Source of the DNA: Verrucomicrobiia bacterium
GTDB lineage: Bacteria > Verrucomicrobiota > Verrucomicrobiia > Palsa-1439
Reading direction: 5' to 3'
Length of the DNA stretch: 64,000 nt
Assembly: GCA_022072455.1 (NCBI GenBank)
Contig: JAJVHY010000017.1
Location: 62,001-126,000, forward strand
The first letter of the stretch is position 1. Every line of letters begins with the position of its first letter. The position numbers and the translations under genes were made by a program. This document shows, one piece after another, positions 4,787 to 53,503 of this stretch. A model generated the notes under the pieces. That model was not told the origin of the DNA. It worked only from the letters and a program-made list of their open reading frames with translations, and made no database searches.

Positions 4787-6670
4787 ATGGATCACAGCAC
4801 TTCAGCTCAACTTCCATTCTCGGGCGGACAATCTACCGCCACTATTCCCGACACGCTCGACCTTGCTGACCGCGCCGCCTTGGCGATCAATGGCTTGGGC
4901 GGAAGCATTGATCCCGAATTGCTGACGTTGTACGGGCTGACTCACTTCTGCTGTCAACGCCCGCACTTCGCGCATTGGGCATCAGCCGACACACTGATCG
5001 ATCCGAAGTTTGCGGAATCGTTTTCCCTGATGCGCGTGATGTGCGGCAGCCGGCAATACGAGGAGCTCGAACACCGCTTCCGCGAGGAGCTTTTTCGGCG
5101 AATCAAAGACGGCCTCTATTGGGATTACTACACGCCAAAACGTCCGTGGCGCAACGCATATGCCCCTGACTTCTATGGCGCCGGCAAAGACGAAGACTTC
5201 GCCACCCTGCCGGGAACCGGGCGTATGATTCGGGCGTTGCTGGTCTGGCGCGAACTCGGCGATGGCTCGATGCGGACCGAGGAAGCAATTCAAACGCTCG
5301 TCCACGGTCTGCGGCGGATCGCAGTGGAACGCGGCGATTATTGTTATTACCCAGAAAAAGGCGGCTGGGGTGAACCGTGTTCCTACCCACGCTCGGGTTG
5401 GCTCAATACCGACGAAGCCCAATCCGAAACCGAAGGCGGCGAGGGGGCCGTCACCTGCATGCAATCCCACCAGATCTATGGCGCCGCCCACTGGTACGCC
5501 GTCAGTGGTGACCCGGTGGCGTTTGATTTGGCCGCGCGCCTCAGCCGGTATGTTTGCCAATCCAAATTCTGGGGCGGCGTGCCCGATCCAAGCTCGTCTG
5601 CTCCCCGCGTTCACAAAAATATCCCGCCGCGCTTGCCCGACCCGCCGTTCACGGCCGGTCACGAACTCGGTCACTGGTATTCGCACTGGCATGCGCGCGC
5701 CATCACGCTGCGTGGCCTGCTCGAATTTGCCATCATCGCCAGCGACGCGCGGATCATGGAATTCGTCCGCCGCAGCTACGAATTCATCTTGACCCGTGGT
5801 CTGCCCCGCACCGGCTGGGTCAACACCTATCCCGGCACCGTGAACCAAATGGAAAGTTGCGCGCTCGGCGACTTCCTCGGGCTGGCCATTCGTCTGTCGG
5901 ACATTGGCCTCGGCGATTACTGGGACGACGTGGACGCAATCGTGCGCAACCAGCTCGTCGAACAGCAACTCACCCGCGCCGACTTGCTCGAAGCCGTGTC
6001 CCGGCAATCCCCTCACCACTGTGCCTGCGAAGCCGCGGCTCATCCCGGAGAGCTGGCGTATGACAACGTCATCGCCCGCAGCATGGGCACCTTCTGTGGC
6101 ACTGCATACCCCACGAGCATTCCAACCCCATTCGTCATGCAATGCTGCACCGGCAACGCCACGCAGGGTTTGTACTACGCGTGGGAAGGCTGCCTCCGCG
6201 AGACCGGTGACCACGCGACCATCAATCTCTTCCTCAACCGCGCCGGCAAGCTCGTGGAGATCGCCAGTCATCTCCCACACGAAGGCATTCTCAGCGTCCG
6301 CAACAAAGCCGCCCGACGCATTTCGATTCGCATCCCGCACTGGGCGCAAGTCCAAGCGACTCGAAACGCGAAGCCAGTCGAACTCGACTGGACCGGCCGA
6401 TACGTCCACTTCAACGTCGCCGCCGGTGACACGCTCGCACTCACATTCCCCATCGCCGAAACGACCGCGCGTTACACTGTCAACGCCAACACACCGGTCG
6501 AACAGATCTACACCTGCACGTTCCGCGGCTCGACGCTCGTGGACATTTCACCGCGCGACACCGCGCCGACCAATTATCCGCTCTACAACCGCACCGCCTT
6601 GCGCGTCGATCAAACTCCGATGAAGCCGCATCAATCCTTCGTCGCAACCCGCGTGGTAAAACAATGGTGA
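4787..6670 (+). CDS. GH127-type glycoside hydrolase (beta-L-arabinofuranosidase-like)
   Basis: 627 aa, without a clear signal peptide. The protein has the look of an (alpha/alpha)6-barrel glycosidase. Two diagnostic patches of the GH127 family are visible: MESCA (E356 and C358) and MQCCTGN (C453, C454). In the characterised GH127 enzyme HypBA1 the equivalent Glu and three Cys residues bind zinc, and one Cys is the nucleophile. GH127 members remove beta-L-arabinofuranose from plant glycans, but substrates vary across the related families, so the sugar cannot be fixed from sequence. C-terminal residues from about 490 look like beta-sandwich. It is followed by aroD and a GH36 enzyme, which suggests a small carbohydrate locus. 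Confidence 0.8.
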   Translation: MDHSTSAQLPFSGGQSTATIPDTLDLADRAALAINGLGGSIDPELLTLYGLTHFCCQRPHFAHWASADTLIDPKFAESFSLMRVMCGSRQYEELEHRFREELFRRIKDGLYWDYYTPKRPWRNAYAPDFYGAGKDEDFATLPGTGRMIRALLVWRELGDGSMRTEEAIQTLVHGLRRIAVERGDYCYYPEKGGWGEPCSYPRSGWLNTDEAQSETEGGEGAVTCMQSHQIYGAAHWYAVSGDPVAFDLAARLSRYVCQSKFWGGVPDPSSSAPRVHKNIPPRLPDPPFTAGHELGHWYSHWHARAITLRGLLEFAIIASDARIMEFVRRSYEFILTRGLPRTGWVNTYPGTVNQMESCALGDFLGLAIRLSDIGLGDYWDDVDAIVRNQLVEQQLTRADLLEAVSRQSPHHCACEAAAHPGELAYDNVIARSMGTFCGTAYPTSIPTPFVMQCCTGNATQGLYYAWEGCLRETGDHATINLFLNRAGKLVEIASHLPHEGILSVRNKAARRISIRIPHWAQVQATRNAKPVELDWTGRYVHFNVAAGDTLALTFPIAETTARYTVNANTPVEQIYTCTFRGSTLVDISPRDTAPTNYPLYNRTALRVDQTPMKPHQSFVATRVVKQW

Positions 6671-9575: not shown

Positions 9576-9654
9576 TCCGTTGCTCAACCGGCTTTCGCCG
9601 ATTCCTTGTACGAAAACCGCCCGTCCTCCGCATATAGGATAACAAGAGACTATT

Positions 9655-10518
9655 GTGGCCAACGAACCGCATCAAGAATCCGACCCCAAACTCGACGCTC
9701 TCCTGCGCCATACTTTGCCGACAGTCAGCCGGCCGGACGAAGCGCATTATGAATATGATGAGCTCAACCGTCTCGCCAAAGACCGGCGCGAGAAGGGCGC
9801 AGCGTGGGAGATGCCGCCGCATTTATCGCGATGTTCACTCTGCCTCGAAGCGTTTCAGGCAATTCTCGAAGGTGTTGCGACGGTGTCGGCAGACACCTTG
9901 AAGCGGTTTGGCGCGATTCGGTCGAGTGACGCCAAGATTGTGGCGTTTCCGTGGCCGATGGTCTGGCGCGTTGCCGCGGTGGTGGCGGTGTTGTTCGCGG
10001 TGTTTGTTTTCCTGACCCCAACCAAACCTGCGCGGGTGAGTGACGGCGCGGTGGCATTGCCGGATGGCAAGCTCTTGCCGACGGGTACGCCGATTCCCCG
10101 CGGGGTGACGGTGACGGCAACCGACACGGTGAGCGCGAGCTTCGCCGATGGCTCGCTGGTCGAATTGACCAAAGATACGCAAGTCAGTTTCGGGGTCGCG
10201 TCGGTCACCCTCACCGCCGGCAAGCTTGTTGCATCGGTCACCAAGCAAACCGCCGGCAAGCCGTTTGTCGTGAAAACCGCGCTGGGCGAGGTGGTGGTGG
10301 TCGGGACGAAATTCAGCGTCGCGAGTACGACGGAAGACGTGGAGGTTTACGAGTCGATGGCCGGTCAGACGCACCAGCGCATCACGGTGGTGCAAGCGAT
10401 CCGAGTCAGTGTGGTGGAAGGGGTTGTGCGCGTGAAACGTCACAATGAACAGGTGAACGTGACCGCCAATCAAACCGCCGTGCTGCGCGAGAGCGAACCA
10501 GGAATCGAAGTCAAATGA
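9655..10518 (+). CDS. FecR-like anti-sigma factor with ZAS-type motif
   Basis: 287 aa from a GTG start. The cytoplasmic N-terminus contains H56-x3-C60-x2-C63 (HLSRCSLC), which resembles the zinc-binding ZAS motif of anti-sigma factors. One membrane helix follows at about 102-120. The periplasmic part is a FecR domain (VELTKDTQV, LTAGKLVASV, ALGEVVVVGTKFSV). FecR-type proteins pass signals from the envelope to an ECF sigma factor. A sigma gene closes the same gene row at 15890, so the pair is a good candidate although five genes separate them. The stop overlaps the next start by ATGA. The -10-like TATAGG near 9633 lacks a well-spaced -35. Confidence 0.85.
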   Translation: MANEPHQESDPKLDALLRHTLPTVSRPDEAHYEYDELNRLAKDRREKGAAWEMPPHLSRCSLCLEAFQAILEGVATVSADTLKRFGAIRSSDAKIVAFPWPMVWRVAAVVAVLFAVFVFLTPTKPARVSDGAVALPDGKLLPTGTPIPRGVTVTATDTVSASFADGSLVELTKDTQVSFGVASVTLTAGKLVASVTKQTAGKPFVVKTALGEVVVVGTKFSVASTTEDVEVYESMAGQTHQRITVVQAIRVSVVEGVVRVKRHNEQVNVTANQTAVLRESEPGIEVK

Positions 10519-12935
10519 GGGCGTTGCTGCTGCTGCTGATTGTCAGCACGGTGGGCTTCGCTGCTGACCCGGAAGAAGCGCAGTACAACGTCGTCGTCAC
10601 CCTCTACAATGCCGGCCAGTGGCAGGCGGCCATCAAGAAGATCGAGGAGCGCGAGAAACTCCCGCTGCCAGACGCGATGCGTGCGAAGTATCTCGCCGCG
10701 AAAGGGCTGGCCTACGAAAAAGGCGGCAAGCCGGCGGATGCGCGGGTCGCTTACGAAGCGTTGCTCACCAAGTATCCGCAAGCGCCGGAATCGCGGACGG
10801 CGCGATTGTCGCTGGTGCATCTCGATTATGCCGCGCGCAATTTCGACGCCGTGATCAGGATGTATCCGATGGTTGAGAAGGCTGGGTTGCCGGCGGCGGA
10901 CGCACGGAACCTGGCGCTGATGTACGCGGAGGCGGTGTATGCGCAGGGCGACGCCAAGGCGGCCCTCGCGGCATATAACCAAATCGGGCCCGACAAGAGT
11001 GCCGTGGCCGGGCGGTTGTTCGAGCTGTATTCCCGGTTGCAGATGCACAAGGAGTTGGTGGACATCTCGGTGTCGGGCGTGACCGGCTTGGATGCCGATT
11101 TGGTGGGGCTGGCGCGCGCGGAATCGTTGTTGGCGCTCGGGCGGAATGCGGAAGCCGAAGCGCAAGCCGGTAAGATAGCGGCGACAAGCGCGCTGTATCC
11201 GCGCGCGGCGTTCACGCGCGGGCTGGCCTTGATCAAGCTGAACAAACTCAAGGAAGCCGTTGCGCCGTTGACGGTGGCCGTCGAAAAACTCAAAGACCCG
11301 CCGCCGCCGCCGAACGCTTATCTGACGTTGGCGGATTGTTTGCTGGAGAGCGGTCAGCCAAAAGAAGCGGAAGCGTACCTCGCGAAAGCGCAGAAACTCG
11401 CTGGTCAAGACCCCGAACTGCAGAAACAAATCGCGCTGGTCAAACTCCGGCAATCCATCAGCGGTGGCAGTCGCAAGGAAATGATTGCGACCATCACGAA
11501 GTCGCGCGATTCGCTCCCGAAAGAACAGTTGCCCAAAATGCTCTACCTGCGCTTGTTTGCGTATTCCGAGGACGGTGACGACGCGGCGATTGTGCGGACG
11601 ATGGCGGCGGACTTGCCGGTGTTGCAGGCGAGTCCGGAAGACGGGGCGGCCACGCTGATTTATGCGGCGGCGTTGCGGAAGTTGAAGCGGGCGGACGAGG
11701 GGTTGAAGTTGCTCGACGAATTCGTGAAGCGGCAACCGTCCGCGCCAGAAGCGTTGCGCGCCCGGCTCGAACTGGCGAACGTGGCGTTGGAGCAAGAAGA
11801 GTTCCGTCAGGCGGCCCCGTTGCTTGACGCGATTCTGAATACGCCTGGCGCCGAGGCGACGCTCGGCAAGGAGACGTTTCAGAAGGTGTTGTTCAATCGC
11901 GCCGTCGCGGCGGACAAACTCCAGAAACCCGACGACGCTATCATGGTGCTCAAGCTGTTGCCGACCGGCCCGGCGGCGGTGTTGCTGGGGCAGATGTATG
12001 CGGTGAAAAAGGATTATGCGACCGCGGCGGCGACATGGAAAAAGGCGTTGACCCTGCCGGGGGTGGACGAGGCGGACGTGCGCGACCGGTTGGGGCGGGT
12101 GTTGTTTGCGGCGAAGAATTATGCCGGTGCGTGCGAGCAATTTGAGAAGTTACCAGCGTTGAGCCGGGAAAGCGCCGAGGCGTTTGCCCGCTCGCGGTTC
12201 GCGACCGGGCGATTTGCGGACGCGGCGAAGCTTTACGAGGATTTGTATTCGCGCCACCGCGACGTACCGGCGTATGCGTATGAATGCGCGGTGGCGTTGG
12301 AGCGGGACAAGAAATTGCCGGAGGCTGCGAAGTGGTACGGGATCGCGGTCCAAGCGAAGGACAAGTTGCCGGCGGAGTATGCGAAGGTCGTGGAGGCGAA
12401 CCTTGCGCTGGCGCAGGGTGATTGGAGCCGGTCGCTCGTGCCGACGGCGTCGGATGCGGAGTTCAACCTCGCGCTCACCCAAATCCGCAAAGCCGGTAAG
12501 CCGATCAACTACGCGAATCCTTACACCGTGACGCAAGCCCGGTATTACGATTTCTGCGCGGTGTTGTTGCAGACCGGCTCGGCGACGAATGCCGGTCAGT
12601 TGGCGGCGGAGTTCATGGCGAACGAACGCCAGCTTGATCCGAAGAGCACCGGCGCGACGCTGGCGCCGGCCATTATCTATTTCTTCAAGGGCGAAGCGGA
12701 ACGGCGCGCCGGTAACGAGGCGGATGCATTGGTGTCGTATGAAACGGTCTTGTCCGCGTATCCCTATAACGAGTGGCCGGATGCGGCGGCGTGCGGTGCG
12801 GCTGAATGTTATGCCGCGCTCGGCGATAAACCCACGGCGCTCGCGAAGTTTGCCCAAGTTGTCAAAGCCAACGCTTCGCCGCAGTGGACGGCGGTCGCGC
12901 AGAAACGAATCACCGAACTTAACCAAGGAGACTAA
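10515..12935 (+). CDS. Exported TPR-repeat protein
   Basis: 806 aa with a Sec-type signal peptide (MRALLLLLIVSTVGFA, then ADPEEAQ). The rest is a long array of tetratricopeptide helices: repeated patterns such as YNAGQWQAAIKKIEE, YEKGGKPADARVAYEALL and LAKAQKLAGQDPELQKQ are visible across the whole length. It probably forms a periplasmic scaffold. Its place directly before ExbB and ExbD resembles clusters in which a TPR or YbgF-like protein accompanies a Tol/Ton motor. The start is coupled to the FecR-like gene by ATGA. A good Shine-Dalgarno (AAGGAG) at its 3' end serves the next gene, two bases away. Confidence 0.85.
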   Translation: MRALLLLLIVSTVGFAADPEEAQYNVVVTLYNAGQWQAAIKKIEEREKLPLPDAMRAKYLAAKGLAYEKGGKPADARVAYEALLTKYPQAPESRTARLSLVHLDYAARNFDAVIRMYPMVEKAGLPAADARNLALMYAEAVYAQGDAKAALAAYNQIGPDKSAVAGRLFELYSRLQMHKELVDISVSGVTGLDADLVGLARAESLLALGRNAEAEAQAGKIAATSALYPRAAFTRGLALIKLNKLKEAVAPLTVAVEKLKDPPPPPNAYLTLADCLLESGQPKEAEAYLAKAQKLAGQDPELQKQIALVKLRQSISGGSRKEMIATITKSRDSLPKEQLPKMLYLRLFAYSEDGDDAAIVRTMAADLPVLQASPEDGAATLIYAAALRKLKRADEGLKLLDEFVKRQPSAPEALRARLELANVALEQEEFRQAAPLLDAILNTPGAEATLGKETFQKVLFNRAVAADKLQKPDDAIMVLKLLPTGPAAVLLGQMYAVKKDYATAAATWKKALTLPGVDEADVRDRLGRVLFAAKNYAGACEQFEKLPALSRESAEAFARSRFATGRFADAAKLYEDLYSRHRDVPAYAYECAVALERDKKLPEAAKWYGIAVQAKDKLPAEYAKVVEANLALAQGDWSRSLVPTASDAEFNLALTQIRKAGKPINYANPYTVTQARYYDFCAVLLQTGSATNAGQLAAEFMANERQLDPKSTGATLAPAIIYFFKGEAERRAGNEADALVSYETVLSAYPYNEWPDAAACGAAECYAALGDKPTALAKFAQVVKANASPQWTAVAQKRITELNQGD

Positions 12936-12937
12936 AC

Positions 12938-13588
12938 ATGTCGTCGCTCACGTTCCTATTTGAAATGGCCATCAAGGGTGGCTTCTTCATGATCCCCATC
13001 GCGATCTGCGCGGTGGTGGCGATCATCCTGACGATCGAGCGAGTTCTGTTCCTGCGGCAGAACCGGATCCATGGCGACCGGCTGCATTTCGAGTTGCAGA
13101 CCGCGTTGAAGGAGGACGATCTCGACAAGGCCGTGGTGCTCGCGGCCAAAACGAACGGCGTGGTCGGGCGCGTGCTCGAAGAAGGGTTGCGCCGCGTGCA
13201 AAACGGCGAAACGGATATTGATGTCGCGACCGAGAAAATCATCCACAGCGAGATGACGCAGATGGAAAAGTCGCGCGACTGGCTCGTGACGATTTCGGCC
13301 ATCGCGCCCTTGCTGGGAATTCTCGGGACGGTGCAGGGGATGATTGTCGCGTTCATGAAAATCGAGGAAGCCGGTTCGACGGATCCGAAGTTGTTGGCCG
13401 GCGGGATTTATATTGCGTTGATCACGACGGTGGCGGGGTTGGTGGTGGCGATCCCGGCGACGGTGGCGCACGATTACTTCCGCAAACGAACGAACGAGAT
13501 TCTGCACGCGATGGATTTGTACCTCCTCGAAATCCGCGAGTGGCTCGACAAGAAGCACAAGGAAACCGAGGGGCCGGTGCATGTCTAG
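12938..13588 (+). CDS. exbB: MotA/TolQ/ExbB proton channel family protein
   Basis: 216 aa. Hydrophobic helices lie at about residues 9-34, 111-132 and 152-175. The second contains the family pattern AIAPLLGILGTVQGMI, and the third LITTVAGLVVAIPATVAHDYF. Such proteins form the proton-conducting pentamer that drives Ton, Tol or Mot systems in the inner membrane together with an ExbD/TolR dimer. The ExbD gene follows with an 8-base overlap. The gene belongs to the sigma/FecR/TPR unit, and a second ExbB is encoded at 38468-39070. The symbol is by family only; the partner receptor is unknown. Confidence 0.93.
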   Translation: MSSLTFLFEMAIKGGFFMIPIAICAVVAIILTIERVLFLRQNRIHGDRLHFELQTALKEDDLDKAVVLAAKTNGVVGRVLEEGLRRVQNGETDIDVATEKIIHSEMTQMEKSRDWLVTISAIAPLLGILGTVQGMIVAFMKIEEAGSTDPKLLAGGIYIALITTVAGLVVAIPATVAHDYFRKRTNEILHAMDLYLLEIREWLDKKHKETEGPVHV

Positions 13589-14018
13589 ACGCTACCAGCG
13601 CCACGAGATTGCCCCCGGCAAAACTGGGAACATGACGCCGTTGATTGACGTCGTGATGCAGCTCATCCTGTTCCTGATGTTGGCGAGCGCGGCGGTGCGA
13701 CCGAACCAGATCCAGCTCGACTTGCCGGAGTCCAGCAGCAGCGTCAAGTCGCCGGAGAAAAACATCCTGACCGTCACCTACGCGGTGCGGGACGGCAAAC
13801 CTGACATCACGCTCGAAGCGAAACCGGTCGAGACCTTGGAAGCCCTGGGGCCGGCGTTGCAATCGGCCGGCCGCGGCTCGGAAAAACCCATCGTCAATGT
13901 GCGGATCGAAAAGACCGTGCCGTATCAAGATGTGATTCGAGTGATGGATGTGGTGCGCGATGCCGGGTTTCCCAAGTTCTCGCTGTTGACTCTCCTGCCG
14001 ACAAGGGCCGCCAGATAA
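13581..14018 (+). CDS. exbD: ExbD/TolR family protein
   Basis: 145 aa. The short cytoplasmic N-terminus leads into one membrane helix that contains the functional aspartate (NMTPLIDVVMQLILFLML, D26). A periplasmic domain of about 95 residues follows and ends PYQDVIRVMDVVRDAGF, as usual for ExbD/TolR. It forms the ion-driven motor with the ExbB encoded just upstream, whose gene it overlaps by 8 bases. The next gene begins one base after its stop. Compared with the second ExbD of the window (38033-38464), the core layout is the same but the sequences differ, so they are separate systems. Confidence 0.93.
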   Translation: MSRRYQRHEIAPGKTGNMTPLIDVVMQLILFLMLASAAVRPNQIQLDLPESSSSVKSPEKNILTVTYAVRDGKPDITLEAKPVETLEALGPALQSAGRGSEKPIVNVRIEKTVPYQDVIRVMDVVRDAGFPKFSLLTLLPTRAAR

Positions 14019-14019
14019 C

Positions 14020-15843
14020 ATGGGGCATTCCCATCCAACCGCGACGGAACCGGACAGCAAGTTCCAGATAACCGGCATGGTGGCCGGAGTGGGGGCGTGT
14101 CAGTTGATCTCGGACAAGGACGAGATCGTGGTCGGTTCGGGCTTGGAGTGCGACCTGGTGGTTGTCGATCCGCTCGTGCCGCGCCGGGCATTTCGCTTGA
14201 AGCGCGCGCGCGATCACGTCGCGCCGCGGGCGGATTGCGCGACGTATTGGATGCTCGAATCATTTCCGCAGGCGCGGAATTATGTGAATGGCAGCCTCGC
14301 GCATCGGAGCCGGGTTGAGTACGGCGACAAGATCGCGTTGGGTTGTCACGAGTTGCGCTTTACACCCATTGCGGATGAACCGCGCGACCGCTGGGCGAAT
14401 ACGCGGATTGACGACCTCTGCGAGCGGCTGATGCAAAATGATGAGGTGCCGCGGGGCTTTCTGGAAAGTTGCCCGAGCTGGCTCAACCGCTGCCGGACAG
14501 TCCGCGCGATCAAAGTGGCGTTGACGGTCGTCGGCTTGTTGTTTCTATTGTGGTTGATTGTCCCGGCGCGCGAGAAGTTCGAGCAGGTGCAGTTGCCGAT
14601 GGAGATCGTGATGCTGGCCGACCGCACGAGCAGTCCCGACCCCAACGCCGTGCGCTCACTCGATCAGGTGCAACGCAAAACCATTCCGCAACCCACCGAC
14701 CAGCTTCCGCGCAGCGAGATCAGGGAGAATCAAGTGCAGCCGGTCAAAGACTTGGAAACCAAACCGGTTGAAGTCACTCCCGTGCCGCCGGTCGCCAAGC
14801 CGGTCGCGCCGCAACTGGAAGTCACCGCCGCCCCGCGCTTGCCGGCGTTGGAAGTGCAGACGGAGAACGCGCCAAAGATTGACGCGCCGGTCGCGAAACT
14901 TCAGGTGGCCGCCCCGCCGCGCCGGTTATCGGTTCAGGAGGCGGCTGACCCGGTTTTTCGCCGGGAGCTCGGGGAGGATGTTCAAGTGCGGATTGCGGAT
15001 GCCACCGTGGCGGCGGTGGCGATGCCGCTCAGTCGGAGTTTTGCGAAGCCTGCGCAACCGAAACTCGAGTCGGACCGGGCTGCGCAACTGGCCGCGTTGG
15101 AGCGATTCAAGCCGAGTCCGCTGCGCTTCGAACAATTGGAGGGAGTGCCGATTCCTATCGCGCGGTTGCCGGGGGAATTGACCAAGCTCGAAGTCAAATC
15201 CGGTCAGCCCACCCCGAATCCAGCCGACGCCATCGTGCTGGATGGCGAAGTGTCGGAGGCGGAAGTCGCGGTGAGTTGGAAGAGCGGGCAGTTCAAAGTG
15301 CATGGTCCGTCGCCCAGACTCGCCGAGCCGCCGACCTACTGTTACGTCGGAAAAAAGGAACAAGGTGGCCGGGAGTACTTATACATCTCGTTCACCTGCC
15401 TTGATCCGAACCTCAGCCAGCTTGTCCTGGGGCGGGGCGAGGGAGCGACATTGTGCCGCGACGACAGCGTGGAAATCTTCGTGGACACCGATTCGGATAT
15501 CCGCAACTACAACCAGATGATCGTCAACGCCGCCGGTAAATCCTGGGCCGGGCAGATGTTGAATCAAGGTGGCGGCCGGTATCAGGTTGGCCCCGCGTGG
15601 GACGCGCAAGCGCAGGTCAAGACCACGATCAACAAGTCGGCGGGACGTTGGTCGTGCGAGATTTTGATTCCGTTTGACCGGCTCGGTGGCGTCCCGGCGA
15701 AAGGGGCGCGGTGGGGCGTGAATTTCTGCCGCAACTTCCGCGGACAATCCGGTGTGGACGACCATTTGCAGACGTGGTTCTCCGTGTACGAAAAGTCGCG
15801 CAATTTTCAGCGTCCGGAATTGTTTGGCCGGTTTGACTGGTGA
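14020..15843 (+). CDS. FHA-like / membrane / proline-rich / CBM9-like multidomain protein
   Basis: 607 aa in the position where a tonB gene would be expected. Residues about 15-118 resemble an FHA domain (IVVGSGLECDLVVVDPLVPRR; later NYVNGSLAH and YGDKIALG). A membrane helix at 163-181 follows. About residues 200-300 are rich in Pro, Val, Glu and Lys, like the periplasm-spanning part of TonB. From about 400 to the end lies a CBM9-like beta-sandwich: CRDDSVEIFVDTDSD, GRWSCEILIPFDRLGG and RWGVNFCRNFR are typical of family 9-like carbohydrate-binding modules. No TonB C-terminal domain is seen. I infer an inner membrane protein with a cytoplasmic phosphopeptide-type sensor and a periplasmic glycan-binding head, energised by the upstream ExbBD. 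Confidence 0.75.
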   Translation: MGHSHPTATEPDSKFQITGMVAGVGACQLISDKDEIVVGSGLECDLVVVDPLVPRRAFRLKRARDHVAPRADCATYWMLESFPQARNYVNGSLAHRSRVEYGDKIALGCHELRFTPIADEPRDRWANTRIDDLCERLMQNDEVPRGFLESCPSWLNRCRTVRAIKVALTVVGLLFLLWLIVPAREKFEQVQLPMEIVMLADRTSSPDPNAVRSLDQVQRKTIPQPTDQLPRSEIRENQVQPVKDLETKPVEVTPVPPVAKPVAPQLEVTAAPRLPALEVQTENAPKIDAPVAKLQVAAPPRRLSVQEAADPVFRRELGEDVQVRIADATVAAVAMPLSRSFAKPAQPKLESDRAAQLAALERFKPSPLRFEQLEGVPIPIARLPGELTKLEVKSGQPTPNPADAIVLDGEVSEAEVAVSWKSGQFKVHGPSPRLAEPPTYCYVGKKEQGGREYLYISFTCLDPNLSQLVLGRGEGATLCRDDSVEIFVDTDSDIRNYNQMIVNAAGKSWAGQMLNQGGGRYQVGPAWDAQAQVKTTINKSAGRWSCEILIPFDRLGGVPAKGARWGVNFCRNFRGQSGVDDHLQTWFSVYEKSRNFQRPELFGRFDW

Positions 15844-15889
15844 TTCCGCATTGCGTCGGTGGGTGACGCGGTGCTACTGTCGCCACGAC

Positions 15890-16465
15890 ATGGCCGGCGC
15901 AGACGAAACGATTCTCCTGCGACGATTACTGGCAGACGATCCTCCGGCGTGGCAGGAACTCGTTAATAAGTACTCGGCGCTGCTCCTCTCCATTTCCCAG
16001 CGGACATTTGCCGGGTATGGTTTCACCGCTTCGACTCACGACTGCGAGGATGTCGTCGCCGAAGTCTGGAGGAATCTGCTGCATCATGACCGGCGGCTGC
16101 TCCGGCAATGCCTGGAACGCCAACAACTCCTGCCGACGCTCCATGTTGTGACGCGCAATCGTACGATTGACGTGATGCGGCGCCGCAAACTCATCACCCA
16201 ACCGCTCGCCGATGAGTTGGTCGAAGTGCCGGCAGCTGAACCGGCCCCGGATTTGTCCGGCCGTCTCCAGCAGGCGCTCGCGCAACTGGCACCGAAAGAA
16301 CGCACGTTGATTGAGTTGTTCTATCTCCAGCGAAAAAAATACCGCGAGATCGAACTGTTGACCGGAATTTCCGCGAACAGCATCGGGCCGACGTTGGCGC
16401 GGGCACTCGGCAAACTCCGCGTCACGGTTGGAGGCGAACCCGGTAAAAGCGCTGCACGGGACTAA
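15890..16465 (+). CDS. ECF-type RNA polymerase sigma factor
   Basis: 191 aa from the ATG at 15890; a longer frame upstream reads into the previous gene and is not needed. Region 2 includes DDPPAWQELVNKYSALLLSIS, HDCEDVVAEVWRNLL and VTRNRTIDVMRRRK. Region 4 is a helix-turn-helix of the form LAPKERTLIELFYLQRKKYREIELLTGIS followed by LARALGKLR. ECF factors direct RNA polymerase to a small regulon and are usually held by an anti-sigma factor. The FecR-like protein encoded at the head of this gene row is the obvious candidate. The last 44 bases overlap the 3' end of the convergent subtilase gene. Confidence 0.9.
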   Translation: MAGADETILLRRLLADDPPAWQELVNKYSALLLSISQRTFAGYGFTASTHDCEDVVAEVWRNLLHHDRRLLRQCLERQQLLPTLHVVTRNRTIDVMRRRKLITQPLADELVEVPAAEPAPDLSGRLQQALAQLAPKERTLIELFYLQRKKYREIELLTGISANSIGPTLARALGKLRVTVGGEPGKSAARD

Positions 16466-19400
16466 GCCCGCCGGGGTCGGTGACCTCGACGGGATTGCCG
16501 GTCCCCGAAATATCGGCGGCCACGATGGTCGGCGCGCTGCCGTCCGGTTCGGTACTCCATTCCACCGTATAGAGTTTGTTGGTCACGGTGGTGAACAGCA
16601 ACCGAACATCCGTGGTCGTCGCGGTGATGGCGGTGATGCGGAACACGCTCGCCGCATTCGTCGGCTCGGTGCCGGCGTGGAACTCCTGCAAGTTCGTCAA
16701 CCCGTCGCCATCGGCGTCGCACCCGGCGCAGGATTGCTCATTCGTGGAGTTGCCGGCGCCGCCGAAATAGAATTGCCGCCACGCGTCCGCAATCCCGTCG
16801 CCAACGCTGTCCACGGGGCGCACCACGACTTGCTGGGTGGTCGAGTTGGAGCCGAGCGGGCCGCTCACGGTGAGCTTCACGGTGTTCGTGCCGACGGCCA
16901 GATAGGTATACTGGAGGGTCGTCAACATCGTGTTCGAGGTGCCGCCGTTGCCGAATTCCCAGAATCGATTGGTGATCGAGCCGGCGGAGGTGTCGGCAAG
17001 CGTCACGGTGAGCGGCACCACCTCGTTTGTTGGGGTGGCCGTAAAACTGGCAGCGAGCGGGACGCCGCCATCGCAACAGCCGTTGTCGAGCACGCTCAGG
17101 CTGTCAATGTACCAGCCGGTACTGCCAACGGTGCTGTCGGTGCCGCAGCGCCAGCGGAACTGGACGTTTTGCCCGGCCGCGCTGGCTGGCAAGTTGACCA
17201 CGGTGGTGAGCCAGCCGCCGGAATTGCCGCTCCACGCCTGCCGGCCGCCGAGTGGATTGCCGTAGGAGGTGCTGAGCGTGCGCGGGTAGCCGCCCGCAGT
17301 GAACGACCCGCCGGCCACAAGGATGTCCTGAAATGCGCCCGCGCCGATTTTGAGTTCGAGCACGCCGCCATCGAACCCGACGGAGCTGCTGCTGCCGCTG
17401 GCTTCGAGGCTGTAGTTGTTGCGGAACGTGAGCTTGGCCGAGGCGGAGATGATCGCCACTACCGGCGAGATGAGCGCATTGGAGCCGATGCTGCTGACAT
17501 TGGGCGAGAACGCGGAATTGAGTGGGGAGTCAAGCCGGTTGGTCGAAGTCGTCCACGCCGACTGCCCGCCGCCACTGGTTGTCGTCCACCCCGCCGGCAA
17601 GGCGGGCGCGGTGACGCCGTCGAAGGTTTGCGTGAACGTTATGCTCGTGGTGCCGAGGGTGAATTGATACGCGATGGTCCCCAGCGTGTTCGTGCCGTCC
17701 TGTAGCGACAACGTGGCCGTCACGGTGCCGCCGCAGCTTCCGCTCGCGGTGAATGTGAACGCCCGCGCGATACTCGCGTCATTGGTGCCGATGACTCCGT
17801 AATTTTGCGGGCCGCTCGGATTGGTGACACCGCCGGTCGCCAACAGGGTGGCCACAAGATTGGAAGTCGCCGCCGTGCCGGTATTGCGGATGGTGAATTC
17901 GGCGGTGACGGTTTCGTCGGGATCGAGCGTGCCGTTGCTCGGGCCGCAGCCTTCGCTGGGAAGTGCGACGGGGCCGGCCAGCAGCAGCGGGGCGGGGACT
18001 TGGGAACTGTTGTAGACCACGAGCGCAAAATCCTGATCGAGCGCGTCGCCGTTACCGGGAACGCCGTCGGCGACGATGTTGGCAGCGGTAACGGTGACGA
18101 TGAACTGCCCGGCCGAACCCGGCGCGAGGAAGACGCTTTCGACGTTGTTGCGCAGATCGGCGCTCCCGCCGGTAATCGATGTCGCGCCGCTGAAGACGTT
18201 GCCTTTGTAGGTGCTGCCGGCAATCGTGACGGTGAGGTCGAGATCGTTCTTGTAGGCATTGCCGGTGGTTGAACCGGGAGCGTCCGTCCACGCGAGCGTG
18301 ACGCGAAACGGTGCCGCGACGTCGGCCACGGTGCCGGTAAAGGAGCGGGATTGGCCGGTGGCGGTGAAGCGGTCGGCGTTGAGTTGGTCGCGCAAGGTGC
18401 GGTCGAGTCCATCGAAGGCCATGCCGAGGTCCAGGCCGCCGTGGCCCTGGGTGTTGGAGGGCAGCGTGTCGTTCGCGCCGGTGCCGGTCATGTAGCGGGC
18501 GGAGTTGAGGAGGAACGCCTTGGTCATGGCCGGGCTGGGCGGGGTGCCGAATTGGTTGAGAAAGTATTGCCGGAGCAGGGCGGTGGCGCCGGCGACGGCG
18601 GGAGTGGCGTGACTGGTGCCGCTGGAGGCCGAATAGAATTGTTGGCCCGCCGGGAAAAACGCGCTGCCCCCCGGCCCGCCACTGATGCCGCTGCCGTCGT
18701 AACAGCCGGCGGCGGTGCCGAGGGTGCCGGGATTATTGATTTGCGGGACGCCGCCGGTGATGTGGGTGCCGGGAGCGACGAGATCGGGTTTTTTCCGGCT
18801 GTCGTCGCAGGGACCGCGACCGGAGAAACTGATGATGTCGTTGGCGCTGTTGGCCCCGGTATCGGCGACGCCACTGCCATCGGTGCCGCCGATGGCTTGG
18901 ACGCCTTCGCCGGCGCCGACGGAGATGATGTTTTTGCCGGTGCCGGGGGGTTGGACGCTGCCGGCGTCGGGGCCGTCGTTGCCGGCGGCGAAGATGATGA
19001 CCATCTCCTGATTGCCGGGGGTGGCGATGGCGGCACCGGTGGGTTGGGCGTCGCGGACGAGGGCGTCGTATTCCTGAGTATCCGAGTCGTATGCGCCCTG
19101 ACTGGTGGTGCCGACGCTGCCCCAACTGTTGTTGCTGATGCGGGCGCCGTCCTGATAGGCGCGGGCGATGAGGTCGCGGTAGGTGGGATTGGTGAAATCG
19201 TCGGGGTCGAAGATGACGGAGGCGCCGAGTTTGACGAAGGGACAGAGGCCGAGGCCGTACCGGTAGCCGCTGGCGTCGGCGAAGGGGAAGTTGGTCTGGT
19301 CGCTGTAGCCGGCAATGATGTGGGCATTGAGGGTGCCGTGGCCGTCGCAGCCGGCGAGAGTGCTGCCGATGTTGGGAGAGCCTTCGAGTCGGGAATAGAC

Positions 19401-20375
19401 GATGCGGCAGCCAGTACCGAGGTTGCCGGTGCGGTAGAGGCCGAAGTGGTTGGGGTCGGTGGTGCCGTTGTCAATACCGCTGTCGGAAACATCCACAACG
19501 AAGTCGGAGGCATCGAATTGGGTTTGGGTGAAACCTTTGGCCGCGAGCCAAGCGAGGTAGCCGGGGCCGGTGGGGACGTTGCCGGAGAGGTTGCCGGCGC
19601 TGATTTGCGCCTGGCGTTCGCCGTGGCGGACGGGTTCGACGTAGCGGTGGATGGAGATGACGTCGGGTTGATCGGCAATCAGTTCGCGGTCGGCGGCGGT
19701 GAGACGGACGGTGACGTTGCGGAAGTTTTGGAAGCGGTCGTCTTTTTTCGGCGGCGCGAGTTGGCAGTGTTCGATGAGCGAGCGGGTGGCGAGGTTGTCG
19801 GCGTTGTCATCGACGAGTTGGATTTTGTACCAGTCGGGTTCGGTGGCGCGGGCGCGCGGATGGATTTTGTGGGGGCGGGCGTAGGCGGCTTCCCATTGAA
19901 CGAACGGCGCGGTGGCGGCCCAGGTTTGGAGGGCGGCAAGCGCGGCCTCGTCGCCGGTGACGAGGTAGGTGTTGCTGGGAACGTAGTCCACGAGTTTGAC
20001 GCCGGTTTTCTGAAGGGCGGCGAGCCAGTCGGGAAGTATGGGGCCGGCGAATTGGACGAGGTGGAGACGGCGGCCGGTGAAGTTGGCGAGTGGTTGGCGT
20101 TGACCTTTGGCGGCGGGTTGGGTGGTGTCGATCGGGCCGGAGTTAAGAGCGATGAGATTGTAGTCGTGTCGGATTTCGACCGCCGGCAAGGCGTTGGTCG
20201 CGGTGGTGGCGAAGAGTTGGTAGCTGCCGTAGTCAGCGATGAGTTGAGCGCCACGGGCGCGAAGTTCAGCGGCGGTGACAGGATCGGTGACGCGGACTTT
20301 GGGGGCAGCTACAGCCGGCAGGGCGAGAAGTCCGACCAGAGTCAAAGATTGAACAAGTAAAACCAACAACTTCAT
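16422..20375 (-). CDS. Secreted subtilisin-like serine protease (S8) with PKD and Ca-binding repeats
   Basis: 1317 aa from the ATG at 20375, which opens a signal peptide (MKLLVLLVQSLTLVGLLALPAVAA); an upstream extension is less likely. After a prodomain-like region the S8 catalytic residues are D298 (VSDSGID), H346 (CDGHGT), N466 (AAGNDG) and S588 (SGTSHATP). A jelly-roll-like domain (about 665-770) and further beta modules come next. A PKD-like domain (TPTNEVVPLTVTLAD) follows, then a thrombospondin type 3-like calcium motif (CDADGDGLTNLQEFHAGTEP) and a final beta region. The mature protein is probably outside the cell or on its surface. The 3' end overlaps the convergent sigma gene by 44 bases. 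Confidence 0.92.
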   Translation of the reverse strand: MKLLVLLVQSLTLVGLLALPAVAAPKVRVTDPVTAAELRARGAQLIADYGSYQLFATTATNALPAVEIRHDYNLIALNSGPIDTTQPAAKGQRQPLANFTGRRLHLVQFAGPILPDWLAALQKTGVKLVDYVPSNTYLVTGDEAALAALQTWAATAPFVQWEAAYARPHKIHPRARATEPDWYKIQLVDDNADNLATRSLIEHCQLAPPKKDDRFQNFRNVTVRLTAADRELIADQPDVISIHRYVEPVRHGERQAQISAGNLSGNVPTGPGYLAWLAAKGFTQTQFDASDFVVDVSDSGIDNGTTDPNHFGLYRTGNLGTGCRIVYSRLEGSPNIGSTLAGCDGHGTLNAHIIAGYSDQTNFPFADASGYRYGLGLCPFVKLGASVIFDPDDFTNPTYRDLIARAYQDGARISNNSWGSVGTTSQGAYDSDTQEYDALVRDAQPTGAAIATPGNQEMVIIFAAGNDGPDAGSVQPPGTGKNIISVGAGEGVQAIGGTDGSGVADTGANSANDIISFSGRGPCDDSRKKPDLVAPGTHITGGVPQINNPGTLGTAAGCYDGSGISGGPGGSAFFPAGQQFYSASSGTSHATPAVAGATALLRQYFLNQFGTPPSPAMTKAFLLNSARYMTGTGANDTLPSNTQGHGGLDLGMAFDGLDRTLRDQLNADRFTATGQSRSFTGTVADVAAPFRVTLAWTDAPGSTTGNAYKNDLDLTVTIAGSTYKGNVFSGATSITGGSADLRNNVESVFLAPGSAGQFIVTVTAANIVADGVPGNGDALDQDFALVVYNSSQVPAPLLLAGPVALPSEGCGPSNGTLDPDETVTAEFTIRNTGTAATSNLVATLLATGGVTNPSGPQNYGVIGTNDASIARAFTFTASGSCGGTVTATLSLQDGTNTLGTIAYQFTLGTTSITFTQTFDGVTAPALPAGWTTTSGGGQSAWTTSTNRLDSPLNSAFSPNVSSIGSNALISPVVAIISASAKLTFRNNYSLEASGSSSSVGFDGGVLELKIGAGAFQDILVAGGSFTAGGYPRTLSTSYGNPLGGRQAWSGNSGGWLTTVVNLPASAAGQNVQFRWRCGTDSTVGSTGWYIDSLSVLDNGCCDGGVPLAASFTATPTNEVVPLTVTLADTSAGSITNRFWEFGNGGTSNTMLTTLQYTYLAVGTNTVKLTVSGPLGSNSTTQQVVVRPVDSVGDGIADAWRQFYFGGAGNSTNEQSCAGCDADGDGLTNLQEFHAGTEPTNAASVFRITAITATTTDVRLLFTTVTNKLYTVEWSTEPDGSAPTIVAADISGTGNPVEVTDPGGLSPVQRFYRVRLQP

Positions 20376-20439
20376 CAGTGAGTTTTTCCAACGCGCAAGC
20401 TGGGGGAAACTAGCCGAAGGTGGGGATTTCTCAAGGAAA

Positions 20440-21966
20440 TTACCGCGGCCAACGTGGGGTGACAGTGAGGTTGGTGCCGGCAAAATAGCGCGTGCGCGCC
20501 GGGATCTCTTTCGCGGGGTCGAGTGAATGTGGCGGGCCGATTGTGGGCCAAGAGTTGGTGATTGTCCAGAAGGCCGGCAAATTTGTCAGGTAGTAGCTGA
20601 CATCAGTGAGATTGGTGGTGCCGGGGGGTTGGAGACCGCGCGCCTTCGTAAGGTTGCCGAACTCGAAGTTGCCGGGGCCTTTGAGGGAATAGCCGTCACC
20701 GAGGAACGGCGCGAAGGCGACGGTGAAGGTTTCGTTGCCGACGACGTTCTGGTTGCTGGCGGTGCGATCGGTGACGTTCAGGCCATAGGCTTCGGCACGA
20801 TTGCGGAAGAAGGTGTTGAGCGGGCCGTTGGCGCCGTGTGAACTGTCGAGTTGGATGTGCTGGACGATATTGCCCTCGAACAGATTGGCGTACGGATAAT
20901 TGCCGTGAATCGTGATGTCACTCGACACTTCGGACGGAAACTCCGTGCGGAGTGGTTCGCGCGAGTAGTTGTAGGCGACCACGTTGCCGTTGACGCCCGC
21001 TTGCGCCACGATGGAATGCCGGAGATGCTGGAAGATGTTATTCTCCACCTTGCACTCGCCGGACTTGTACTGCAGCCGCACGCCGTAACCCGATCCGCCA
21101 CCGTCGTAATCCCACGCGTGATGGAAATAGCTGCCGGTCACTTCGCACTGCGTCGACCAATCCAGCGCGACATGTCCGCCGAATGTGTTGGCGCTTTCGA
21201 CGCCGCGCACCCAACACCGGGCGGCGTAGGCGAGGCTGATCGTGTAGATGTTATCGCGTTGCGGGTTGGTGCCGGCTGCGAGGCGTTCGAGCTTCAAGTT
21301 TTCCACGCCGGCACCCGTGACCAGGTTGACCTTGCGAATTTCCGGCAGCAAATCGTCCCGGTAACCGATGCGCAAGGGACGTTCGAGGGTCAATGTGTTA
21401 CCGGCGACGGCGGTGATGCGGACGAATTGTCCACATGTTTTCTGCGCCCACCCGCTGACGCGCCAACTGGGGTCATTGTTCTGCTGCAGCTCGGCATAAT
21501 CACCGGCGGCAAACTCGCTGCCGTTACTGACCGTGATTGAATTCGAATGCAACGAGTAACCGGCCAGCACCCGCTGGAACTTCCCGGTCTGCGGTCCGCC
21601 ACTGATCGAAATGCCATGCCGGAGATGATCAATTCGCAGAAGCGTGTTCGTCGGACTTTCCCCGCGCAACACCACCCCCGCCGGCACGTTCAACGTGGCT
21701 TGCAGCCGATACGCCCCCGCCGGGAAGAAGACCACGCCGGGCGCGTTGCTCAACGACCGAATCGCCGCCGTGATCGCCGGTAAATCATTCGTCGTCCCGG
21801 TGCCAAGCGAACCAAAGTCGCGGACGTTCACCACTTTTGCCGGCAAGACAATCGGCCCGGGATGACCGGCATTCAGCCATGCCGCCGTGAAGGTGCGATT
21901 CGTCGGGATGACTTGTGCGCTGGCGACAACTGTCAGGCAGCCGAGAATGGCGAGTCCGGATTTCAT
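20440..21966 (-). CDS. Exported right-handed beta-helix protein (pectate-lyase-3-like)
   Basis: 508 aa with a signal peptide (MKSGLAILGCLTVVASA). VVNVRDFGSLGTGTTND followed by LPAITAAIRSL is the classic start of the pectate lyase superfamily domain, and the following repeats (GVVFFPAGAYRL, GVVLRGESPTNTLLR, CEVTGSYFHHAW, CKVENNIFQHLR) fit a right-handed beta-helix. Such proteins cleave or bind polysaccharides outside the cytoplasm. Catalytic residues cannot be named with confidence, so the substrate is open. The start overlaps the stop of the phosphodiesterase gene by ATGA, and the subtilase gene starts upstream of nothing else: it lies 64 bases after this stop. Confidence 0.82.
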   Translation of the reverse strand: MKSGLAILGCLTVVASAQVIPTNRTFTAAWLNAGHPGPIVLPAKVVNVRDFGSLGTGTTNDLPAITAAIRSLSNAPGVVFFPAGAYRLQATLNVPAGVVLRGESPTNTLLRIDHLRHGISISGGPQTGKFQRVLAGYSLHSNSITVSNGSEFAAGDYAELQQNNDPSWRVSGWAQKTCGQFVRITAVAGNTLTLERPLRIGYRDDLLPEIRKVNLVTGAGVENLKLERLAAGTNPQRDNIYTISLAYAARCWVRGVESANTFGGHVALDWSTQCEVTGSYFHHAWDYDGGGSGYGVRLQYKSGECKVENNIFQHLRHSIVAQAGVNGNVVAYNYSREPLRTEFPSEVSSDITIHGNYPYANLFEGNIVQHIQLDSSHGANGPLNTFFRNRAEAYGLNVTDRTASNQNVVGNETFTVAFAPFLGDGYSLKGPGNFEFGNLTKARGLQPPGTTNLTDVSYYLTNLPAFWTITNSWPTIGPPHSLDPAKEIPARTRYFAGTNLTVTPRWPR

Positions 21967-38032: not shown

Positions 38033-38464
38033 TTACTGAACCGACTTTTTCGTGAACGCCGTGATGTTCTGGATGCCGGCGACGCGGGCGGCGTCCACTA
38101 CGCTGACGATGGTGCCGTAATTGGCGTTCTTGTCGGCTGACAGCTCAATGATGACTGCCGGGTCTTTGGCCTTTGCCTCTTTCAACGCCTTCTCGAGCTG
38201 ACCGGTCGCAGTTTTTTCCTTGTCGAGGTAGATCGCACCGTCGGCGGCAACGGTGATGCGGAGCTGGTTGGTCTTCTGCTTGCCGACAGCCTCGGCGGAT
38301 TTCGCTTCCGGGAGGGAGAGTTTCACCCCGGCCGGCTGCTGCGACGCCACGCGGAAGGTTGTTGTCGCGATGAAGAAAATCAGCAGGATGAACAACACAT
38401 CCACCAGATTGATGATCCGGATGCGCGGGACGAAGGGCGATTTGGGTGGTTCAAAGATGCGCAT
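38033..38464 (-). CDS. exbD: ExbD/TolR family protein (second set)
   Basis: 143 aa. One membrane helix near residues 17-38 contains the functional Asp (RIINLVDVLFILLIFFIATTTF, quoted here as INLVDVLFILLIFF). The periplasmic domain shows GVKLSLPEAKSAE, AIYLDKEKT and NYGTIVSVVDAARVAGIQNI, the expected ExbD layout. It is the last gene of a TonB-ExbB-ExbD row on the minus strand and starts 3 bases after the ExbB stop. It probably powers outer-membrane transport together with these neighbours. Confidence 0.94.
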   Translation of the reverse strand: MRIFEPPKSPFVPRIRIINLVDVLFILLIFFIATTTFRVASQQPAGVKLSLPEAKSAEAVGKQKTNQLRITVAADGAIYLDKEKTATGQLEKALKEAKAKDPAVIIELSADKNANYGTIVSVVDAARVAGIQNITAFTKKSVQ

Positions 38465-38467
38465 GAT

Positions 38468-39070
38468 TTATGGGTACAACCGAGTCAATAATTCATCCAC
38501 ATGCCGCTCCATCTCCAGAACGAGCGTCTCGATCCGGCGGCGCAAGTACATGTACGCTATCAAAGCCGGGATCGAAATGAACAAACCGGTAAATGTCGCG
38601 ACGAGTGCCTCGGAGATACCGGCAGAGATTAATTTTGGATCACTCATGCCCAGATTGGCGACGTCGGCAAACAGATGCAGCATGCCATTGACGGTGCCGA
38701 GCAAGCCGAGTAGTGGGCCAAGTTCGGCGATCAATCCGAGCGTCGTCAACCCCCGTTCCATCCGCCCAACGGCTTGCCGGGCGACGGCTTGGACGGCTTC
38801 GATATTCTCCGTTTTGTGCAGCGTGGCGTGATCGAAGGCGACGCGGGTCAACTCGCCCAAGACCGACTTGTCATGTTCGACGATCGACTTGAGTTTGTCG
38901 GTCGTCTCCTTGTCGGTTCCCCGTTTAGCGAGTGCGCCAGCGACTCTGGCCGGGATGATGTGTTGCCGGCGCAGCACCCAGCACCGCTCGATGATGATCG
39001 CCAAGCCGGCCACTGAACACAGCAGCAGCGGCCACATAACGAATCCACCCTGTTGAAACCATTCCGGCAT
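38468..39070 (-). CDS. exbB: MotA/TolQ/ExbB proton channel family protein (second set)
   Basis: 200 aa. Hydrophobic helices lie at about 10-30, 114-136 and 153-172. The central one has ELGPLLGLLGTVNGMLHLF and the last LVATFTGLFISIPALIAYMY, both standard for ExbB/TolQ. It forms the proton channel with the ExbD encoded 3 bases downstream. The TonB-like gene lies 12 bases upstream. Together the three genes are a complete Ton energy-transducing set, distinct from the set at 12938-14018 that has no TonB. Confidence 0.95.
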   Translation of the reverse strand: MPEWFQQGGFVMWPLLLCSVAGLAIIIERCWVLRRQHIIPARVAGALAKRGTDKETTDKLKSIVEHDKSVLGELTRVAFDHATLHKTENIEAVQAVARQAVGRMERGLTTLGLIAELGPLLGLLGTVNGMLHLFADVANLGMSDPKLISAGISEALVATFTGLFISIPALIAYMYLRRRIETLVLEMERHVDELLTRLYP

Positions 39071-39082
39071 CCTGAGCCTCCT

Positions 39083-40153
39083 TCAATAGTAGAAAGTAAA
39101 ATTGACCTCGCGCGCGTCATCGCCAATCAATTGCCGCAACGACTCCGGCAAGGGCGGGAACGGGGCTGAATCTACAACCGCCTTCTCGCAAAACAATCCC
39201 AAAATCTGCCCGGCGGTGTTCTCCTTCACGGACATGTTTTGCACCGAACCATCGGCGACGAGATGAAATTTGAGCGTCACCTGGCCGGCGCGTTCGTACA
39301 GGCCATTCTTTTCGATCAACGCATACCACCGGCTTTGCACCGCGCGAATCAACGCCTTATCATAATCGCCGAACGGACTACCGGCGACGTTGAATGCCGC
39401 CACACCGATCCGCGAGACGCCGGAGGCACTCAATTTTGATTTTAAGGTCGCAATCTCGCGTTGCGAGCCGGCGGCTGGACTGGCCACTACCGGGGCCACT
39501 TCGAGCGGCGGCGCGGGCGGCGGGGCCGGGCGTTCGAGAAACGCGACTTTTTTCTCGGCGACGACTTTGAAGCCTTCGGCGGCGACCGGCGGTTTGGGCG
39601 GTTCGGGTAGCGGAGCGGCCGGCGGGCGCGGTGGAGCCGGCGGGGCAACGACCGGCCGCGGCGGCGGGGCCGCTGCGACTGCCGGCTTGGGGGTGACCGA
39701 TTCGGTGGATGTCAGCCGCGTGTCTTGGCCGTCAAGGTATGGAGTGTCGCCGAGTTTAGCGGTCGGATTGCTGGGATTGGCAGCCACGGTTGACCGGTCG
39801 GAATAATATTTTGCGTCGGCCGGCTCCGCGCCGGTCGGCTGTGTCGCATCCGTCTCCACGAACTGCCGGGGTTCCTGCCGTGGCGGAGGGGGCGGCGCGG
39901 GCTGTTCGATGAAAGTGATGGTTGGCTCAATGGGATGTGGCGCGATTGGCCGGGGCGCTGCTTCCAGCAATTTTGCCACCGGTTGGAAGAGGCTGAATTT
40001 CCCCAACGTTGCCCGGTATTCCCACAGCAGCAGGGCGGCCACGTGCAGGAGTACCGACAGGAGAATCGCCACCTCCACCGGCAGATATTCACTCGGGAAA
40101 ATGCGCCGGGGGGCGAACGGAACAGCGGGTGGTTGTTTCAGCGATTCAGTCAC
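39083..40153 (-). CDS. TonB-like energy transducer, proline-rich
   Basis: 356 aa. A single membrane helix lies near residues 24-44 (LPVEVAILLSVLLHVAALLLW). A long Pro/Ala-rich region (about 65-240, with PPPPPRQEP, APPPRPVVAPPAPP and PPAPPLEVAP) can span the periplasm. The last about 110 residues (AVQSRWYALIEKNG, GQVTLKFHLVADGSVQNMSV, PLPESLRQLIG) match the TonB/TolA C-terminal type. It should link the ExbBD motor encoded downstream to an outer-membrane receptor. The start overlaps the maf stop by 8 bases, so all four genes from maf on may be one transcript. Confidence 0.85.
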   Translation of the reverse strand: MTESLKQPPAVPFAPRRIFPSEYLPVEVAILLSVLLHVAALLLWEYRATLGKFSLFQPVAKLLEAAPRPIAPHPIEPTITFIEQPAPPPPPRQEPRQFVETDATQPTGAEPADAKYYSDRSTVAANPSNPTAKLGDTPYLDGQDTRLTSTESVTPKPAVAAAPPPRPVVAPPAPPRPPAAPLPEPPKPPVAAEGFKVVAEKKVAFLERPAPPPAPPLEVAPVVASPAAGSQREIATLKSKLSASGVSRIGVAAFNVAGSPFGDYDKALIRAVQSRWYALIEKNGLYERAGQVTLKFHLVADGSVQNMSVKENTAGQILGLFCEKAVVDSAPFPPLPESLRQLIGDDAREVNFTFYY

Positions 40154-48527: not shown

Positions 48528-50084
<1,557 letters not shown>

Positions 50085-50155
50085 CCTTGAGTTAGGGCTT
50101 CGGCTGCTAACTCGGAAATCCTAGGTCGAATCCTGGAGAAATTCAGGACGCTCGA

Positions 50156-50184
50156 ACGTATCGCACACTTCAGTTTTCAAGAAC
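50156..50184 (+). other. 3' half of the 16S rRNA processing stem
   Basis: Complementary to 48369-48399 upstream of 16S. A boxA-like TGTTCTTTGA follows at 50187-50196, a place where antitermination factors NusB/S10 commonly bind before 23S. Confidence 0.85.
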
Positions 50185-50348: not shown

Positions 50349-50374
50349 ACTCAGCCGGTAACTAATTACCGACT

Positions 50375-50589: not shown

Positions 50590-53503
<2,914 letters not shown>

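Follow-up and report, generated by a model that had tools for sequence, protein, structure and literature searches.

GltG of Myxococcus is built from an FHA domain, a transmembrane (TM) helix, a Pro-rich part and a TonB domain, and it interacts with the ExbB-like protein AglR (PMC3169522). In bacteria of the Planctomycetes-Verrucomicrobia-Chlamydiae (PVC) group, transducers that end in a vWA domain and not in TonB were described in 2025 beside TPR and TolQR-like genes; the motor-box strand has been described for TonB and TolA (PMC12204202). FecR of E. coli cleaves itself at G181-T182, cleavage at the Gly-Thr pair is not essential in FoxR (PMC9249621), and the N-terminal domain of zinc-type class I anti-sigma factors carries the motif Hx3Cx2C (PMC7406223). 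Here we describe a six-gene operon of a Verrucomicrobiia bacterium (GTDB lineage Bacteria; Verrucomicrobiota; Verrucomicrobiia; Palsa-1439; GenBank assembly GCA_022072455.1), located at 9655-16465 of a 64,000-nucleotide stretch of contig JAJVHY010000017.1 (positions 62,001 to 126,000, forward strand); this whole stretch is referred to below as the window. Based on sequence comparison, we consider it probable that an autoregulated switch, consisting of an extracytoplasmic function (ECF) sigma factor and a FecR-like anti-sigma factor, controls a proton-driven ExbBD motor with a non-TonB transducer. The features of the operon, in window coordinates, are as follows.

9609-9636, plus strand: predicted ECF-type promoter TACGAAA-N13-CGCATATA, upstream of FecR, common to 7/7 FecR loci and predicted to be recognised by the operon's sigma factor
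9655-10518, plus strand: FecR-like anti-sigma factor (Pfam FecR, 8.4e-9; orthologue alignment)
10515-12935, plus strand: exported TPR protein, 806 amino acids (aa) (many TPRs; Pfam TPR families)
12938-13588, plus strand: ExbB/TolQ-like channel protein (Pfam MotA_ExbB, 1.8e-30)
13581-14018, plus strand: ExbD/TolR-like protein (Pfam ExbD, 1.4e-25)
14020-15843, plus strand: FHA/TM/Pro/CBM9 protein, putative force transducer, 607 aa (Pfam CBM9_1, 4e-9; structure models)
15890-16465, plus strand: ECF sigma factor, 191 aa (Pfam Sigma70_r4_2, 2.6e-10; NCBIfam sigma70-ECF, 2.9e-17)

A check of open reading frames (ORFs) confirmed all six on the plus strand, in exact agreement with the first-pass annotation, which had described six head-to-tail genes: FecR and TPR overlap by 4 bases (ATGA), a 2-base gap separates TPR from ExbB, ExbB and ExbD overlap by 8 bases, and gaps of 1 base and 46 bases precede the FHA/CBM9 gene and the sigma gene, respectively. 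The domain assignments made there (FecR, TPR, ExbB, ExbD, FHA, CBM9 and ECF sigma) agree with Pfam and NCBIfam matches and with structure models, the FHA domain being degenerate. The GC content of the operon, overall and at third codon positions, is similar to that of neighbouring genes, and the contig is 239 kb long; on these grounds, foreign DNA and assembly error were rejected. The operon may have been acquired by ancient transfer, because none of the sampled genomes from the host's class has the unit.

We used the FHA/CBM9, TPR and FecR proteins to search 177 to 188 genomes of the host's class, and no second unit was found; in 188 genomes, the FHA/CBM9 query matched merely the common CBM9 part, and a first scan of genome contigs with this protein gave no match. 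With ExbB as the query, the best match outside the unit among 57 close relatives of the host was ~36% identical; in a scan of named genomes, Lentisphaerae bacterium RIFOXYC12_FULL_60_16 gave a 60% match. The ExbB query also gave two matches in a phylum sample of 388 genomes and six matches in 346 genomes of the class to which those two belong. These searches recovered the core order, TPR-ExbB-ExbD-FHA/TM/Pro/CBM9, in all six genomes, which belong to a different class of the host's phylum, but the regulatory genes only in part. FecR leads the motor operon, overlapping or abutting TPR, in 3/6 relatives (loci L139, L145 and L147). A sigma orthologue is present in 4/6, at a different place in each: ahead of FecR, behind the CBM9 gene, convergent with the CBM9 gene or on another contig. 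The arrangements in these genomes, and in three loci of the same class that lack the motor, are listed below.

L139: sigma-FecR-TPR-ExbB-ExbD-FHA/CBM9
L145: FecR through FHA/CBM9, then sigma, convergent
L147: FecR through FHA/CBM9
L140, L146 and L148: core only
L163 (genome G524): FHA/CBM9 then sigma, same strand, 110 bases apart, as in the window
Genome G707: sigma orthologue at contig edge
L160 8216-9671, L161 9490-11056 and L162 8903-10366: motor-less sigma-FecR pairs, with the promoter between both genes

The unit of G524 is split over two contigs, and its upstream sequence, where a FecR gene would be expected, is missing. Because it recurs in six other genomes, the arrangement is confirmed not to be a product of chance. 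The sigma family occurs in 7 of the 346 genomes: four have the unit, and the other three have no motor but carry the sigma gene immediately next to a FecR-like gene. Gene neighbourhood therefore shows the FecR-like protein and the sigma factor to be a recurrent pair. Since two cores occur without the pair and three pairs occur without the core, the pair and the motor core are, judged by gene content, separable modules that most, though not all, units combine.

Directly upstream of FecR, the element TGTACGAAA-N13/14-CGCTATA is present at near-fixed spacing in 7/7 loci having FecR. The window copy reads, from 9606, TTGTACGAAA...CGCATATA; in the relatives, the sites are found at L139 5239, L145 2826, L147 13620 (minus strand) and L162 9795 (minus strand), and in L160 and L161 the element has a 14-base spacer and lies between the sigma and FecR genes, such that a search with a fixed 13-base spacer misses these two loci. 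The pattern was first seen by eye in three loci; the sites in L139 and L160-L162 were added later. We scored the sites with a two-block matrix from which each site was left out in turn, using as background 2.06 Mb of the host genome (43%); the left-out sites scored between 0 and 7.8e-6 per position. The operon site, itself part of the matrix, ranks first in the scan of these 2.06 Mb. No such site was identified upstream of TPR in L140 and L146, which are cores without FecR. In L139, the promoter (5239-5278) sits where a naive ORF call would begin FecR. In L160-L162, no more than ~15 bases separate the -10 element from the start codon, which makes very short or absent leaders likely in these three loci.

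The search for ECF-type promoters thus identified the site at 9609-9636 upstream of 9655 and, elsewhere in the genome, a second strong copy, TTGTACGAAATGCGGGCAGCCGCCGCATAG, at G000:C24:39896 (L181 19896 to L182 576), the sole other standout in the 43% scanned. A gene ~50 bases downstream of this copy encodes an exported protein of 198 aa that is probably helical, has no Pfam or NCBIfam match and is likely a member of the regulon. Because only one other site stands out in the scanned part of the genome, the regulon of the operon's sigma factor is probably small. A weaker intergenic promoter-like site, ATGTACGAAGA...ACGCTGAA, occurs at G000:C7:59342 (L257 19342), and, judged from the N-terminus of its product, the gene that follows after ~42 bases resembles a family 2 glycosyltransferase.

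The FecR-like protein consists of an N-terminal cytoplasmic zinc-type anti-sigma (ZAS) domain, one membrane helix and a periplasmic FecR domain. The ZAS motif and single helix proposed in the first-pass annotation were borne out: the motif H56-x3-C60-x2-C63 (HLSRCSLC) begins at residue 56, and alignment shows it to be invariant in four orthologues. G217-T218 of the protein aligns with G181-T182 of E. coli FecR; this Gly-Thr pair is present in four unit-linked FecRs and absent from the three motor-less FecRs (L160, L161 and L162). Based on the same kind of alignment, all four unit FecRs stop before the C-terminal receptor-contact part of E. coli FecR. The gene is the sole FecR match above cut-off in the whole host genome, and the sigma factor is one of ~21 host proteins with a region 4 match above cut-off. 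In a comparison with the ECF classification, the superfamily model alone passes its cut-off for the sigma factor, whose orthologues are ~50% identical and are tied to the unit or to FecR. At its 3' end, the sigma gene shares 44 bases (16422-16465) with the end of a convergently oriented, large S8 peptidase gene (16422-20483, minus strand).

ExbB keeps both pore threonine motifs (LGTVQGM at 129 and ITTVAGL at 162), ExbD keeps the proton-path aspartate (D23 in TPLIDV), and these motor residues are conserved in relatives. By these motifs, ExbB and ExbD are shown to retain the residues needed for proton flow. ExbB is 57-65% identical in the six relatives and falls with them in a separate clade with 100/99 support. 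The TPR protein has a signal peptide without a lipobox cysteine, and its orthologues are 38-46% identical. A second motor set is encoded on the minus strand at 38033-40153 of the window and comprises ExbB, ExbD and a 356-aa TonB-like protein with SVLLH in its helix and a TonB_C match of 0.078, below cut-off; the host therefore also has a more classical Ton set. Further along the window, a complete rRNA operon (16S, tRNA-Ala, tRNA-Ile, 23S and 5S) occupies 48528-53734 on the plus strand.

The putative transducer has a cytoplasmic FHA domain, one membrane helix (~160-180), a Pro-containing linker of ~250 aa (35 Pro) and a periplasmic CBM9-fold domain; its orthologues are full-length and ~40% identical, and they keep this layout. 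Pfam identified no TonB_C match at E 0.1. A strand-like stretch after the helix, PMEIVML, is motor-box-like: it resembles the motor-box strand of TonB and TolA, including that of E. coli TonB. The full-length 607-aa model is poor (mean predicted local distance difference test score of 52), and only its two globular ends were used. The modelled C-terminus matches the CBM9 structures 7nwn (Z 16.4) and 1i82 (Z 15.6), which makes the assignment of this modelled domain to a true CBM9 fold firm. The modelled N-terminus matches FHA structures in Foldseek, YscD included, and the Pfam match of this part to Yop-YscD_cpl (FHA-like) is 1e-5, below cut-off. Phosphothreonine-binding FHA domains typically share the Arg, Ser and His of the signature GR...SxxH; here, these residues are lost (VGSG and VPRRAF: Arg to Ser, Ser to Pro and His to Ala), and alignment shows comparable losses of signature residues in the orthologous FHA domains. 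Phosphothreonine-dependent FHA signalling was rejected on this basis. At the position of W71 in CBM9-2 (1i82), the sugar-clamp tryptophan, alignments show a tryptophan in only 1/7 orthologues, leaving glycan binding through the classical CBM9 clamp unsupported. Because of these two sets of losses, we claim neither glycan sensing nor phospho-signalling for the protein.

Under the autoregulatory reading, release or cleavage of the periplasmic FecR domain would free the sigma factor, which would then fire the 9609-9636 promoter and raise expression of the whole operon, including in this genome its own gene. An ExbB5-ExbD2 motor would drive the FHA/TM/Pro/CBM9 protein as a periplasm-spanning arm in place of TonB, and this arm, together with the exported TPR protein as a putative periplasmic partner, would act on a cell-wall or outer-membrane partner. 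The transducer role is proposed because the domain layout resembles that of TonB, TolA, GltG and the vWA transducers (PMC3169522; PMC12204202), and the Ton-like reading of the unit is likely. Control of the operon by the sigma factor is the best-supported claim and, from the genomic evidence, a well-supported one. The first-pass proposal of a sigma/anti-sigma controlled Ton-like unit without TonB is upheld by the recurrence of the order in a second class, by a sigma factor that tracks FecR and by the promoter in 7/7 FecR loci. Its further proposal, of one device that senses envelope glycans, is not sustained: the clamp tryptophan is rarely kept, the FHA residues are lost, FecR lacks the receptor-contact part, and the modules are separable. 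Several observations also weigh against the autoregulatory reading itself. The window promoter is the weakest of the seven, with 7.8e-6 per position and 32 equal scores in the 2.06 Mb. The sigma gene of L139 and L160-L162 is outside the controlled transcript, because the promoter there is located between it and FecR. Genomes G300 and G565 have a complete core, with neither a FecR nor a sigma orthologue found, and the motor therefore does not need this regulator. The SHLS motor-binding motif is missing from the transducer helix, which has no histidine, in 7/7 orthologues.

The 46-base gap before the sigma gene and the varying position of this gene among relatives would be expected if a motor operon and an unrelated sigma gene were adjacent by chance; however, a sigma factor this rare, found with the unit in four of its seven genomes and beside FecR in the other three, and a promoter common to every FecR locus make such adjacency very improbable, and we rejected it on the basis of the co-occurrence and the shared promoter. 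A better candidate, although still a minority one, is an accessory machine for nutrient import or for adhesion or motility, of the Glt/Agl or vWA-transducer kind, that is under ECF control and whose CBM9 domain has a polysaccharide or outer-membrane protein as its ligand; such a machine is compatible with the autoregulatory reading and names a use for the motor. The interaction of GltG with ExbB-like AglR (PMC3169522), the TPR-TolQ-TolR-vWA clusters of PVC bacteria (PMC12204202) and the true CBM9 fold argue for it, whereas the near absence of the CBM9-2 clamp tryptophan argues against it, as does the immediate neighbourhood of the unit, where we noticed no TonB-dependent receptor, polysaccharide operon or further Glt gene, although not all of the flanks were family-searched.

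It is doubtful that the unit forms a closed sensory loop in which the motor is the sensor. In such a loop, ExbBD would pull on the CBM9 arm, and gain or loss of an envelope partner by the arm would lay FecR open to cuts, at G217-T218 for instance followed by one within the membrane, and free the sigma factor by a receptor-less form of cell-surface signalling. The location of FecR in the motor's own operon, the Gly-Thr pair that unit-linked FecRs have and motor-less FecRs lack, and the missing receptor-contact extension are consistent with such a loop. However, the core occurs without FecR (G300 and G565) and the pair occurs without the motor, Gly-Thr cleavage is dispensable in FoxR (PMC9249621), and nothing found here supports contact between FecR and parts of the motor. 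The fuller version, in which a dedicated, proton-driven ExbBD motor would use its CBM9-ended arm to probe the envelope and would signal, through FecR and without a receptor, to the operon's sigma factor, so that a motor serving as sensor is regulated by its own readings, we regard as unlikely. The autoregulated sigma/FecR switch acting on a non-TonB motor remains our preferred account.

Like Ton systems, the operon encodes ExbB and ExbD with pore threonines and the aspartate, as well as a membrane-anchored arm in which the helix is followed by a motor-box-like strand and a Pro linker; unlike them, its arm ends in CBM9 and not in a TonB C-terminal domain, has gained an FHA-fold domain and lacks SHLS. 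With GltG/PglI-AglRQS, the gliding motor of Myxococcus, it shares FHA, a single helix, a Pro-rich periplasmic part, an ExbB/ExbD motor and TPR proteins, whereas GltG has TonB_C and belongs to the large Glt complex, and the operon has CBM9, a degenerate FHA, one ExbD and the sigma/FecR genes. The vWA transducers of the Tichowtungia type (PMC12204202) likewise follow TPR, tolQ-like and tolR-like genes and consist of a helix, a linker and a globular part that is neither TonB nor TolA; the operon differs in its CBM9 end, FHA domain, single ExbD in place of two, lack of SHLS and link to FecR/ECF. As in FecI-FecR-FecA, an ECF sigma factor is paired with a FecR-domain anti-sigma factor that has a Gly-Thr pair where E. 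coli has G181-T182, but the unit FecR has an N-terminal HxxxCxxC and no receptor-contact extension, and the controlled genes include a motor. No gene for a FecA-like or other TonB-dependent receptor was noticed beside the unit, although the flanks were not all Pfam-searched and no genome-wide search for receptors was made.

Within the host's family, TPR-ExbB-ExbD occurs in the same order in L095 (5615-10185), L100 (6206-10687) and L106 (6225-10687), but the fourth gene there encodes a TonB_C-like protein of 250-269 aa without FHA or CBM9 (that of L100, the one tested, scores under the TonB_C cut-off), there is no FecR or sigma match, and ExbB belongs to another clade. In the open-licence literature, we found no paper that combines ExbB/ExbD with CBM9, and no title or abstract on FecR, ECF or the PVC group that describes this operon. 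The operon thus joins a known type of motor to a transducer end and a FecR/ECF wiring that are both new. Few non-TonB transducers of ExbBD motors are known, and the CBM9 fold adds a new type of ending to them; this is also the only case met in our analysis of an ExbBD-type motor as a predicted FecR/ECF target. Simple deletions and reporters could test this proposal, given the predicted promoter, the Gly-Thr site and two relatives that naturally lack the regulator.

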